Below are positions 4,356 through 63,762 of a stretch of 64,000 nucleotides of DNA, one piece after another; position 1 is the stretch's first letter, and every line of letters starts with the position of its first letter. The stretch lies in the NCBI GenBank assembly GCA_019454835.1, contig JACFNP010000007.1, positions 1 through 64,000 on the forward strand, given 5' to 3'. This stretch comes from Rubellimicrobium sp. (GTDB lineage: Bacteria > Pseudomonadota > Alphaproteobacteria > Rhodobacterales > Rhodobacteraceae). The translations under genes were made by a program, and so were the position numbers. Below the pieces are notes generated by a model that did not search any database, was not told the origin of the DNA, and saw only the letters and a list, made by a program, of their open reading frames with translations.

Positions 4356-5261
4356 ATGAGCGTCAGGCTGGGCATCAACCCGATCACCTGGACCAACGAT
4401 GACATGCCCGAGCTTGGCGGCGACACGCCGCTCGAGACCTGTCTCGCCGAGACGGCGGCTGCCGGTTACGCAGGCACCGAACTGGGCGGAAAATTCCCCC
4501 GCGACAGCGCCGAACTCGGCCCGATCCTTGGCCAGCACGGTCTGGCGCTGGTGTCGGGCTGGTATGACGGCCGTATTCTCGAACGCAGCGTGGCCGAGGA
4601 ATTCGATGCCATCGAACCGCATCTGACGCTGCTGCGCGATCTGGGCGCGCGCCACGTCGTCTATGCCGACACCTCGCGCGGGCGGAACGGCGCGATCTTC
4701 GAGCCGATCTCGCAGCGCCCCGTTCTGGCCGAGGACGAATGGCGCCCCTATGGCGCGCGCATCACCGGACTGGCCGAACGGATGGCCGATTTCGGCGTGG
4801 CGATGGCGTTCCATCACCACATGGGCACGATCATCGAAAGCGATGCCGAGATCGACCGGCTGATGAACGTCACCGGCGAGGCAGTCGGGCTGCTTTACGA
4901 CACCGGCCATTGCGCTTTTTCCGGCGGCGACCCCGAGGCGCTGCTGCGCCGCCATGTCGCGCGCGTGGTCCATGTCCATTGCAAGGACGTGCGCCCGGAC
5001 ATTCTTGCCCGCGCCCGTGCCGACGACATGAGCTTCATGGGTGCGGTCCTCGAAGGCATCTTCACGGTGCCCGGCGACGGGGCCATCGACTATCCGACCC
5101 TGCTGCGCATCCTTGCCGACGGGGGCTATGCGGGCTGGCTGGTGGTCGAGGCCGAACAGGACCCGGCCAAGGCGCATCCGCTGACCTGTGCGACGATGGG
5201 CTATCGCAATCTGCTCGGCCTTGCGCGCGACGCGGGCTTTCACGTCATCGAAAGGGCATGA
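4356..5261 (+). CDS. iolE: Myo-inosose-2 dehydratase (IolE/MocC-like)
   Basis: A 301-residue xylose-isomerase-like TIM-barrel protein matching IolE, which dehydrates scyllo-inosose (2-keto-myo-inositol) to 3D-trihydroxycyclohexane-1,2-dione, the second step of inositol breakdown. The opening [18 protein letters not shown] is typical of IolE, and later landmarks are FHHHMGT (152-158), YDTGHC (181-186) and HVHCKD (206-211). The rhizobial rhizopine protein MocC belongs to the same family. It is first in an operon and overlaps the next gene by ATGA. The function is strengthened by iolG, iolC, iolD and iolB downstream. Confidence 0.93.
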
Positions 5262-60554: not shown

Positions 60555-61514
60555 TCAGGCGGCCAGCCCCTGCGATCCCATCGCCAGGAACTTCTGGCGC
60601 CGGTCCTGGCGCAGGGCCTTGGCGGCCTTGCCGTCGAGATCCTTCAGCCATCCGGCCAGCAGCGCCCCCACCGCCGCCATCGCCGCAGCGCGGTCACGAT
60701 GCGCGCCGCCCACGGGTTCCTTCACCACCCGGTCGATGACGCCCAGCCCCGACAGGTCCTGCGCGGTCAGATGCAGCGCCTCGGCGGCCTCGCGCATCTT
60801 GTCGGCGTCCTTCCACAGGATCGAGGCGCAGCCCTCGGGCGAGATCACCGAATAGATCGAATGTTCGAGCATCGCCACGCGGTTCGCCGTCGCAAAGGCC
60901 ACCGCGCCGCCCGATCCGCCCTCGCCGATGATGACCGACAGCATCGGCACGCCCAGCGCGAGACATTTCTCGGTGGCGCGCGCGATGGCCTCGGACTGGC
61001 CGCGTTCTTCGGCACCCTTGCCGGGATAGGCGCCCGGCGTGTCGACCAGCGTGACCACCGGCAGGCCGAAACGGTCGGCAAGGTCCATGAGCCGGATCGC
61101 CTTGCGGTAGCCTTCGGGGCGGGCCATGCCGAAATTGCGCTCGATGCGGCTTTTGGTGTCGTGGCCCTTCTCCTGCCCGATCACCATGACCGCGCGGCCC
61201 TCCAGCCGCGCCAGCCCGCCCATGACGGCATGGTCCTCGGCAAAGTTGCGGTCGCCCGCCAGCGGCGTGAAATCGGTGAACAGCGCCTCGATGTAGTCGC
61301 GGCAATGCGGGCGGTCGGGGTGACGCGCGACCTGGCATTTGCGCCATGCCGACAGGTCGCCATAAATCTGCGCCAGCATCTCGGACGCCTTGCGGTCAAG
61401 GGCGGCGGCTTCCTTCTCGACATCCATCTCGGGATTCGCCCGGCCCATGGCGCGCAGTTCGGACGCCTTGCCCTCGATCTCGGCAAGCGGCTTTTCAAAT
61501 TCGAGATAGTTCAT
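60555..61514 (-). CDS. accA: Acetyl-CoA carboxylase carboxyltransferase alpha subunit
   Basis: A 319-residue AccA, which with AccD transfers the carboxyl group from biotin to acetyl-CoA for fatty-acid synthesis. It opens [20 protein letters not shown], typical of AccA. The carboxyltransferase core includes [53 protein letters not shown], and the oxyanion segment [19 protein letters not shown] precedes the ATG at 61514. The reading frame stays open far upstream, but that part is antisense to other genes. It is convergent with plsC, with three bases between the stops. Confidence 0.97.
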
Positions 61515-61753
61515 CAGACACTCCGGCACCCGGTCACGGCCCCAGATATGGCGGCAGCGGTCCCGGCGTGCAAGCGGGCGAAATAGTGCTGCGGACCCAA
61601 CGGCAGACTTGAAACGACTCCGGGGTTCTGCGATTCTCGCGCCTGCGTGACCATACGACATCCGCAGGACACCCGGCGCGATCCCGCGCTGCATCGAATA
61701 CGAACCGCCACACCCGGCATCCGGGGGCCAGGCGATCAACAGGGGGTAATTCC

Positions 61754-62656
61754 ATGATACGGCCACTTCTCGCCGCGTTCGCGCTGGCATTCGTGACCCT
61801 GCCGGGGCTGGCGGCGGCAGATGATTCCTGCGTCTGGGCCAACGACGGCGAATGCGACGACGCCACGCTGGGCGGCACCGGCGCCTGCCAGCCGGGCACC
61901 GACGCCACCGACTGCGCGCGCACCGGCACGCCTGCGGGCAAGCCCGGTATGCTCCCGAGCGGGGCGGGCAACGATTCCTGCGTCTGGGCCAATGACGGCG
62001 AATGCGATGACGCCACGCTGGGCGGCACCGGCGCCTGCGAACCGGGCACCGACGCCACCGACTGTGCGCGGCCGGGCGCCGCCACCCCGATGGCCCCGGC
62101 GGCAGGCAACGATTCCTGCCAGTGGGCGCATGACGGCGAATGCGACGACGCCACCCTTGGCGGCACCGGCGCCTGCGAGCCGGGCACCGATGCCACCGAC
62201 TGCGCGCGGCCGGGCCAGCCGGGGACGGCGGGCGGGGCGACCTCGCAGGTTCCCTTCGCGCAACTGCAGGGCGATGATTCCTGCCAGTATGCCCATGACG
62301 GCGAATGCGACGAGGGGCGTTTCGGCGGCGGCTTCTACTGCGCCTCGGGCACCGATGCGAGCGACTGCGCCGCCATCGCCGCCACGGCCCAGTGCCAGTG
62401 GGCCTTCGACCTCGAATGCGACGAGGCCCGCTTCGGCGGCGGCGGCTACTGCGCCGACGGCACCGACACCTTCGACTGCGCCATCCTTGCCACCGGCATG
62501 AACGACGATTCCTGCGTCTGGGCGAACGACGGCGAATGCGACGAGCCGCGCTACGGCGGGGCCAACTGCCGCGACGGCTCGGACACCACCGACTGCCGGG
62601 CGCAGGCCGGCGGCAGCGCGGGCGGCCCGACCAAGCCGATGTCGATCGGGAACTGA
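61754..62656 (+). CDS. Secreted protein with six four-cysteine Asp/Gly-rich repeats
   Basis: A 300-residue exported protein of no family I can name. A signal peptide (residues 1 to about 21) is followed by six repeats of about 29 residues at 26-54, 76-104, 122-150, 177-205, 214-242 and 254-281. Each has four cysteines spaced C-x7-C-x10-C-x8-C (x9 in the last third interval) and the pattern DGECD...GTDxxDC. All 24 cysteines lie in the repeats, so each repeat is probably a small disulfide-bonded unit, perhaps binding calcium through its acidic residues, as in LDL-receptor-A or Notch-type modules. Repeats 1-3 are almost identical, 4-6 diverged. Linkers are Pro/Gly/Ala-rich. AGGGGGTAA precedes the start. 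Confidence 0.85.
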
Positions 62657-62692
62657 GCGCGGGCTTCCCGCCACATCCACCCGGAACCGGAA

Positions 62693-62719
62693 GGGGCGCG
62701 TGATGCGCCCCTTTCTTTT
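62693..62719 (+). terminator. Intrinsic terminator after the cysteine-repeat gene
   Basis: GGGGCGC (62693-62699) pairs with GCGCCCC (62705-62711) around a GTGAT loop, followed by TTTCTTTT. It lies 36 bases after the stop codon. This is the clearest Rho-independent terminator in the window. Confidence 0.85.
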
Positions 62720-62856
62720 GCGCCCCTTCCTTTTGCGCCCGTCGCCGCTGCCGCAACGATCCCACCGCAACACCCCGGATTTGACCCTGCCAAGCCGCAA
62801 TCGTGCCGGATTTGGCGGTCACTTCTCGCCGCACTGTATGGTGTGAGAGGGGGATC

Positions 62857-63762
62857 ATGGACCGCCTGACAGAAATGGAAGCCTTTGCCACGGTCGTTGA
62901 CCAGGGCGGCTTCACCGACGCGGCCCGGAAGATGGGGATTTCCAAATCCGCCGTCTCCAAGCATGTGTCGGCGCTGGAGGCACGGCTTGGTGCGCGGCTG
63001 CTCAACCGCACCACCCGTCGCGTCAGCCCGACCGAAATCGGGCTTGCCTATTATGACCGCGCCCGCCGCGTCCTGAACGACGCGGGCGAGGCCGATGCGC
63101 TGGTGACTGCCATGCAATCGGCGCCATCGGGATTGCTGCGCATCTCGGTCGCCACCGATTTCGGGGTGAACCACCTGTCGCCGGTGCTGGGCGACTTCCT
63201 GAAGGAATACCCCGACATCACCGTGAACATGGTGCTGAACAACCGTTATGTCGAGCTGATCTCGGAAGGCTTCGACATGGCGATCCGCATCGGCGAGCTT
63301 GAGGATTCCACCCTGCGCGCCCGCAAGATCGCCGACACGACGCGCAAGATGATTGCCGCGCCGCGCTATATCCAGCAATTCGGGCGCCCCGAACGCATCG
63401 ACGACCTGAACGAACACAAGCTGCTGCACTATTCCAACCAGTCCAGCGCGGCGGTGTGGAAGATCACCGCGCCCTCGGGGGAAAAGCGCCAGATCCGCAC
63501 GGCGGGCTGGCTGACCGTCAATGACGGCCAGTCGCTGCTCAACGCCTGTGTGGCCGGGCTCGGCATCGCCTACCTGCCCTCGTTCCTCTTCGCCGACGCG
63601 ATGAGCAAGGGGCTTGTCGAGGAGGTGATGCCCGGCCTGCCGGAGGAGGTGCAGGGCATCTATGCCGTCTATCCACCGGGCCGGTTCACCCAGCCCAAGG
63701 TGCGCGCCTTCATCGACTTTCTGGTCGCGGTGTTTTCCGAGAAGGGGCCGCAGGACTGGTGA
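62857..63762 (+). CDS. LysR family transcriptional regulator
   Basis: A 301-residue LysR regulator. The N-terminal winged HTH (residues 1 to about 60) includes [35 protein letters not shown] and [15 protein letters not shown]. The remainder is the substrate-binding domain with [18 protein letters not shown], the [14 protein letters not shown] segment and [22 protein letters not shown] precedes the ATG at 62857. It is not divergent from an obvious target; the cysteine-repeat gene ends upstream and an OmpA-type gene converges from the right. The target and effector are unknown. Confidence 0.92.

Follow-up and report, generated by a model that had tools for sequence, protein, structure and literature searches.

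A protease-free, exported array of six four-cysteine modules encoded beside accA in Rubellimicrobium sp.

The gene between accA and a LysR-type regulator

The window analyzed in this study, 64,000 nt of contig JACFNP010000007.1 of Rubellimicrobium sp. (assembly GCA_019454835.1), carries near its end a gene for a repetitive exported protein, which is transcribed divergently from accA and followed by a gene for a LysR-type regulator. The features of this region are as follows:

60555–61514, minus strand: accA, acetyl-CoA carboxylase alpha subunit, the divergent neighbor
61741–61746, plus strand: ribosome-binding-like sequence AGGGGG, recognized by eye
61754–62656, plus strand: gene for the six-repeat exported protein, ATG to TGA, 300 aa plus stop; the sister genome G372 has an orthologue in synteny
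61754–61819, plus strand: Sec-type signal peptide, residues 1–22, recognized by eye, cleavage after LAAA likely
61829–61915, plus strand: repeat 1 (type D), Cys1 to Cys4
61979–62065, plus strand: repeat 2 (type D), Cys1 to Cys4
62117–62203, plus strand: repeat 3 (type D), Cys1 to Cys4; closest to sister repeat S4 (91% aa identity)
62282–62368, plus strand: repeat 4 (position A of an A-B-C block), Cys1 to Cys4; the assignment follows the position, as the best matches of this repeat are ambiguous
62393–62479, plus strand: repeat 5 (type B), Cys1 to Cys4; 88% aa identity to sister repeat S2 and 91% to repeat 2 (PS2) of the sister's protease
62513–62596, plus strand: repeat 6 (type C, x9 middle loop), Cys1 to Cys4; 79% identity to sister repeat S3 and 84–88% to the protease repeats PW2 and PS3 (88% to PS3)
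62692–62720, plus strand: possible intrinsic terminator, GGGGCGC-GTGAT-GCGCCCC followed by a T-rich tail, seen by eye and absent from the pattern-scan list
62857–63762, plus strand: LysR-type regulator, downstream, syntenic in the sister genome too

The initial annotation had described a secreted protein built from six four-cysteine repeats, and this description holds: the reading frame is intact, a Sec-type signal is visible by eye, and all 24 cysteines of the protein lie inside the repeats. The spacing C-x7-C-x10-C-x8-C, which had been given for the repeats in general, applies to repeats 1–5, whereas repeat 6 has the spacing C-x7-C-x9-C-x8-C. Repeats 1–3 are indeed nearly identical (88–94% at the protein level, 87–92% at the DNA level), and the remaining repeat pairs have protein identities of 53–65%. 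The mature protein of 278 aa has a pI of 4.05 and a net charge of −38, with 48 acidic versus 10 basic residues. A lipobox, a C-terminal anchor or further domains were not found when the sequence was read by eye, and the Pfam search revealed neither Trypsin (PF00089) nor a catalytic His/Asp/Ser domain. Judged from its sequence, the window protein is thus an exported, very acidic array of disulfide-type modules. Two other origins of the gene were considered and rejected, namely a mobile or plasmid-borne gene (no match among 72,556 plasmid records) and a phage origin (the sole PHROG line was non-significant, E 0.056).

In the sister genome, which matches Rubellimicrobium sp. SJ585 (contig JADYZU010000037), the orthologue is likewise flanked by accA and the LysR gene. 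Both proteins have six repeats, but the order is A-B-C-D-D-D in the sister and D-D-D-A-B-C in the window. Repeats 5 and 6 of the window protein are 84–91% identical to the protease repeats PS2, PS3 and PW2, while for repeat 4 no one counterpart stands out, so that it is called A by position only. As a block, repeats 4–6 correspond to the beginning of the protease array in the sister species. Since repeats 5 and 6 match both sister and protease repeats, the block of repeats 4–6 derives from a protease array, or from a common ancestor with one. The D copies of the two species are 81–91% identical to one another in the repeat comparison; their DNA identity is 80–91% between and 81–95% within species, and the flanking accA and lysR genes have a DNA identity of 85%. 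A recent duplication of repeats 1–3 in the window strain, as had been assumed initially, was therefore rejected: the triplet is common to both species and, because the sister has three matching copies, predates the species split. The D copies look young because the third-position GC content (88%) leaves synonymous sites little room to differ.

The module family, its protease fusions and its two-cysteine branch

Searches of the window protein against Pfam and NCBIfam yielded nothing at E<=10, and neither the protein nor a profile of repeats 4–6 matched any PDB sequence. A 54-member single-repeat profile retrieved only noise from the PDB, with E-values of 0.19 and 2.5; the line at 2.5, the tail of the LDL-A module of enteropeptidase, was the only LDL-A-like one. 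None of the members of this profile matched a Pfam family, and nothing relevant on the motif or on cysteine-repeat proteases of Rhodobacterales was found in the literature. The early suspicion of an undescribed family thus gained support, and the module appears to represent a family that is uncatalogued in the searched libraries (Pfam, NCBIfam, PDB sequences). Relatives may also exist in algae or protists, where similar C-x2-A-x-D-G-x-C-D motifs seem to occur.

A scan of genome contigs identified 277 stretches encoding relatives of the module, from which 79 distinct loci were kept. Most hosts are Rhodobacterales and Maricaulales; Bauldia and Brevundimonas are represented as well, as are single MAGs with the labels Trueperaceae, Phycisphaerales and Thermoanaerobaculia. 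In samples that were even by group, the repeat profile matched 11 of 289 alphaproteobacterial genomes, a few of these matches being two-cysteine or partial, and a three-repeat profile matched 13 of 245 genomes of the order. An iterated profile recovered 393 repeats in 88 ORFs, and the module is therefore far beyond chance. The four cysteines are conserved in 99–100% of these 393 repeats, D28 and D31 in all of them, and the repeats of the window protein likewise have the four cysteines, C2-D-[DE] and D-x-x-D-C4. The number of repeats varies within the family, up to about 10 or more, and the linkers are of low complexity and rich in P, G and A. The module thus marks an annotation gap: it has no Pfam, NCBIfam or PDB-sequence entry, although many alphaproteobacteria and members of some other phyla possess it.

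Several individual genomes deserve mention. In one alphaproteobacterial genome (G148; loci L034, L007 and L031) 27 repeat matches are spread over several contigs, and they include a ten-repeat array without a protease. Locus L143 (genome G662) has a protease-free ORF of 731 aa with well over ten diverged four-cysteine repeats. The protein encoded at L082, whose contig is labelled as part of an Anaerolineae MAG, is near-identical to that of the alphaproteobacterial locus L007, and the contig is probably misbinned.

Arrays without a protease, such as that of the window gene, are in the minority. Among 101 distinct module-bearing ORFs, 79 contain motifs of a trypsin-like protease C-terminal to the repeats. 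The genome of the window itself encodes such a paralogue on a different contig (G000:C26; L133 4525–6081, minus strand), with a signal peptide, five repeats and a Pfam Trypsin domain (E 2.5e-11). The His/Asp/Ser triad and the three protease-proximal modules are conserved in 33 aligned members. The predicted structure of a repeat-bearing protease (pLDDT 82) is closest to Escherichia coli YdgD (PDB 7uxg, E 1.4e-18). Both members of the window's genus possess the free array as well as the protease form, the two genes being separated by about 11 kb in the sister genome, and some other genomes contain one form only. In four Octadecabacter loci (L060, L064, L067, L073) a protease-free exported ORF with three repeats lies about 130 nt or less upstream of an ORF with repeats and protease on the same strand. 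The pair is possibly an operon, and this gene order fits a joint function of the free array and the protease. In Rubellimicrobium thermophilum DSM 16684 (L050) the gene for repeats and protease is split across two frames (ORFs at 4873 and 5663), which suggests a frameshift or a sequencing error.

The sister genome contains a second exported gene adjoining the orthologue (L134 8023–8910, minus strand), with three two-cysteine repeats that contain the motif DATDC. A profile of 21 two-cysteine repeats aligned with the four-cysteine profile with an hhalign probability of 98 (E 6e-14). C2, C4, D9, D13, D14, D28 and D31 are retained in 21/21 of these repeats and E11 in 19/21, while C1 and C3 are both absent. 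In all fetched loci taken together, 349 repeats have four cysteines, 46 have C2 and C4 only and none has just one of C1 and C3, a tally that leaves out the few remaining patterns as mis-registered or unrelated matches and that comprises perhaps few independent observations of the joint loss, because the two-cysteine branch may go back to a single ancient event. As C1 and C3 disappear only jointly, the pattern is as expected for disulfides C1–C3 and C2–C4, which would surround an acidic core that is putatively Ca-binding. At L011 (genome G029) two-cysteine repeats are combined with a Trypsin_2 and a weak PPC domain, which is a second, separate combination of repeats and protease.

Two-cysteine genes are directly divergent from accA in 11 of 17 examined loci (L134, L176, L199, L200, L203, L206, L207, L212, L213, L147, L225), which include the sister (L134), R. 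thermophilum (L176) and several other genera of the Rhodobacteraceae. The slot is held by the four-cysteine gene alone in the window, and by both a four-cysteine and a two-cysteine gene in the sister. Because two-cysteine genes occupy it in many of the examined loci, the slot is probably old, and it seems that the four-cysteine gene joined it and then replaced the two-cysteine gene in the lineage of the window. At these loci a secreted repeat protein is thus tied to a gene of fatty acid synthesis.

Proposed architecture and alternative readings

The attachment of the module mainly to the N-terminal side of secreted trypsin-like proteases, the paralogue in the same genome and the two-cysteine branch had all escaped the initial annotation. 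Taken together with the array itself, they lead us to a reading to which we give about an even chance: the window protein would be a soluble exported array of six disulfide-stapled modules, likely Ca-binding, that is an offshoot of a protease array and shares an extracellular partner with the protease. The disulfide pairing, the cation, the binding role and the regulation in this proposal are drawn from the sequences and from an analogy to PAPP-A.

The protein would form a chain of six modules, each of about 32 residues, folded independently and stapled by the C1–C3 and C2–C4 disulfides. The C2–C4 staple would join the D-x-E-C-D-D/E patch (D9, E11, D13, D/E14) to the D-x-x-D-C patch (D28, D31), and six carboxylates could thus be gathered in one small module around a divalent cation. 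Ca2+ is the likeliest ligand, because the setting is extracytoplasmic and disulfide-forming. The conserved cysteines and acids agree with the disulfide-rich acidic module and plausible Ca site of the initial annotation. Acidic residues adjoining cysteines also occur in modules that do not bind metal. In the two-cysteine branch the acids survive and the putative C1–C3 bond does not, so that function likely resides in the acidic core, with this bond as a supplementary staple.

The fold prediction that had been suggested gave a model for repeats 4–6 (AlphaFold2, 34 sequences, pLDDT 86, pTM 0.59). The model has sparse regular structure, with a short helix that begins just past D28, passes C4 and reaches into the linker; residues 14 and 23 of the first module form a bridge, which recurs in the second. 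Comparison with the PDB (Foldseek, VIA-align) did not yield a relative, nor any match in favor of an LNR-like fold, and modules this small are hard to detect.

In evolutionary terms, the window protein would be an offshoot, free of the protease part, of the N-terminal arrays that secreted YdgD-like proteases of the trypsin family carry, with one extra module triplicated. The free array and the protease array would most likely bind the same extracellular partner, be it a substrate, the cell surface or a matrix, in a Ca-dependent and multivalent manner. On the protease the array could aim or restrict cleavage, and the free array could act as co-binder, adaptor or competitor, with the same partner or the protease itself as its target.

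Other readings take up parts of the same evidence. The extreme acidity of the mature protein (pI 4.05, charge −38), the low-complexity P/G/A linkers and the variable repeat number would also be expected for a cation buffer or acidic matrix protein, which holds Ca2+ in the periplasm or a surface matrix and has no specific partner. However, modules B and C are 79–91% conserved and are kept distinct across paralogues, which exceeds the needs of a bulk buffer, and the fusion of most family members to a protease argues for a positioned role; we regard this reading as unlikely. The free arrays directly upstream of the protease gene in Octadecabacter and the coexistence of both forms in the window's genus could instead point to regulation of the protease by the free array, which would bind to the protease's own array or to its active site as inhibitor or partner in assembly. 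Against this, the two genes are on separate contigs in the window genome and some 11 kb from each other in the sister, an inhibitor motif was not found, and some genomes have one form only, so that the odds are similarly low.

Two further explanations are much less probable. The resemblance of the A-B-C block to the protease array and the shuffled module order between the two species might be remnants of a decaying protease gene that lost its catalytic half and survived by chance. This is very unlikely, as the ORF is intact with its export signal at the same locus in both species, while the neighbors have diverged to 85% DNA identity, and as the cysteines and acids are intact in six of six repeats. 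The least probable reading takes the modules for genuine LDL-A or Notch (LNR) repeats of eukaryotic origin. C-x-x-G-S-D-x-x-D-C is locally similar to the C-terminus of LDL-A, and enteropeptidase, albeit at E 2.5, was the sole LDL-A-like line in the PDB search. Yet the modules have four cysteines instead of six, the Pfam LDL-A and Notch models miss them, and the broad alphaproteobacterial spread together with the two-cysteine branch points to a bacterial history.

Comparison with known systems

Among the nearest known systems are the two-cysteine proteins of Rhodobacteraceae, which are themselves uncatalogued. They share the homologous module with the same acids, the export in tandem repeats and the accA-divergent slot. 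They differ in a longer C2–C4 stretch (25–26 versus 18–19 residues) and in an additional conserved tail, R-x-L-x-x-x-G-x-I-x-L. For the repeat-bearing paralogues, YdgD of E. coli offers the nearest solved catalytic domain (about 33% identity); the match is confined to this domain and includes no repeat, and conversely the window protein is without a catalytic domain.

The similarity to LDL-A and Notch modules, which had been noticed initially, does not extend to membership. The LDL-A module has six cysteines and three disulfides (PMC4500599), in contrast to four cysteines in the six repeats of the window and in the 393 family repeats, and LDL-A membership was rejected on this count and because PF00057 did not match, either in the search with the protein or at the window gene in the whole-genome search. 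Lin12-Notch (LNR) membership was rejected because PF00066 failed to match in the same searches. What is shared with LDL-A (about 35–40 residues) is the clustering of acids near the last cysteine, where C-x-D-G-S-D-E-x-x-C of LDL-A resembles C-x-x-G-T-D-x-x-D-C of the bacterial module, and the organization in tandem arrays; Ca binding is a feature of LDL-A and putative here. The module seems to work like an LDL-A or LNR array in design, and by the tests made it is outside both families.

A narrower analogy holds for the LNR modules of PAPP-A. These have about 30 residues, short helical turns and Ca2+ among acidic residues; the disulfide pattern is 1–3/2–4 in LNR1 and LNR3, and LNR2 has a single disulfide (PMC9579167). 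Disruption of Ca binding in an LNR abolishes the cleavage of IGFBP-4, but not that of IGFBP-5 (PMC9579167). The PAPP-A and the bacterial modules are alike in size, in the acidic residues and in the attachment to a protease, and the putative 1–3/2–4 pairing and acidic core of the bacterial module would match those of PAPP-A LNR1 (PMC9579167). They differ in that PAPP-A is a metzincin and the bacterial protease is trypsin-like, and in that the bacterial modules form arrays and are also free-standing; a sequence match was not found with Pfam PF00066, and no PAPP-A chains were retrieved in the PDB profile searches with the repeats. It is a speculative possibility that there is a bacterial LNR-like system, in which a Ca-dependent two-disulfide module tunes the specificity of a secreted trypsin-like protease and also circulates as free arrays with an affinity for these targets or for the protease itself. 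Should Ca binding and protease targeting prove true, the free-standing array would be a convenient form for structure and binding work, and the bacterial modules would parallel the Ca/disulfide modules that set protease specificity in animals.
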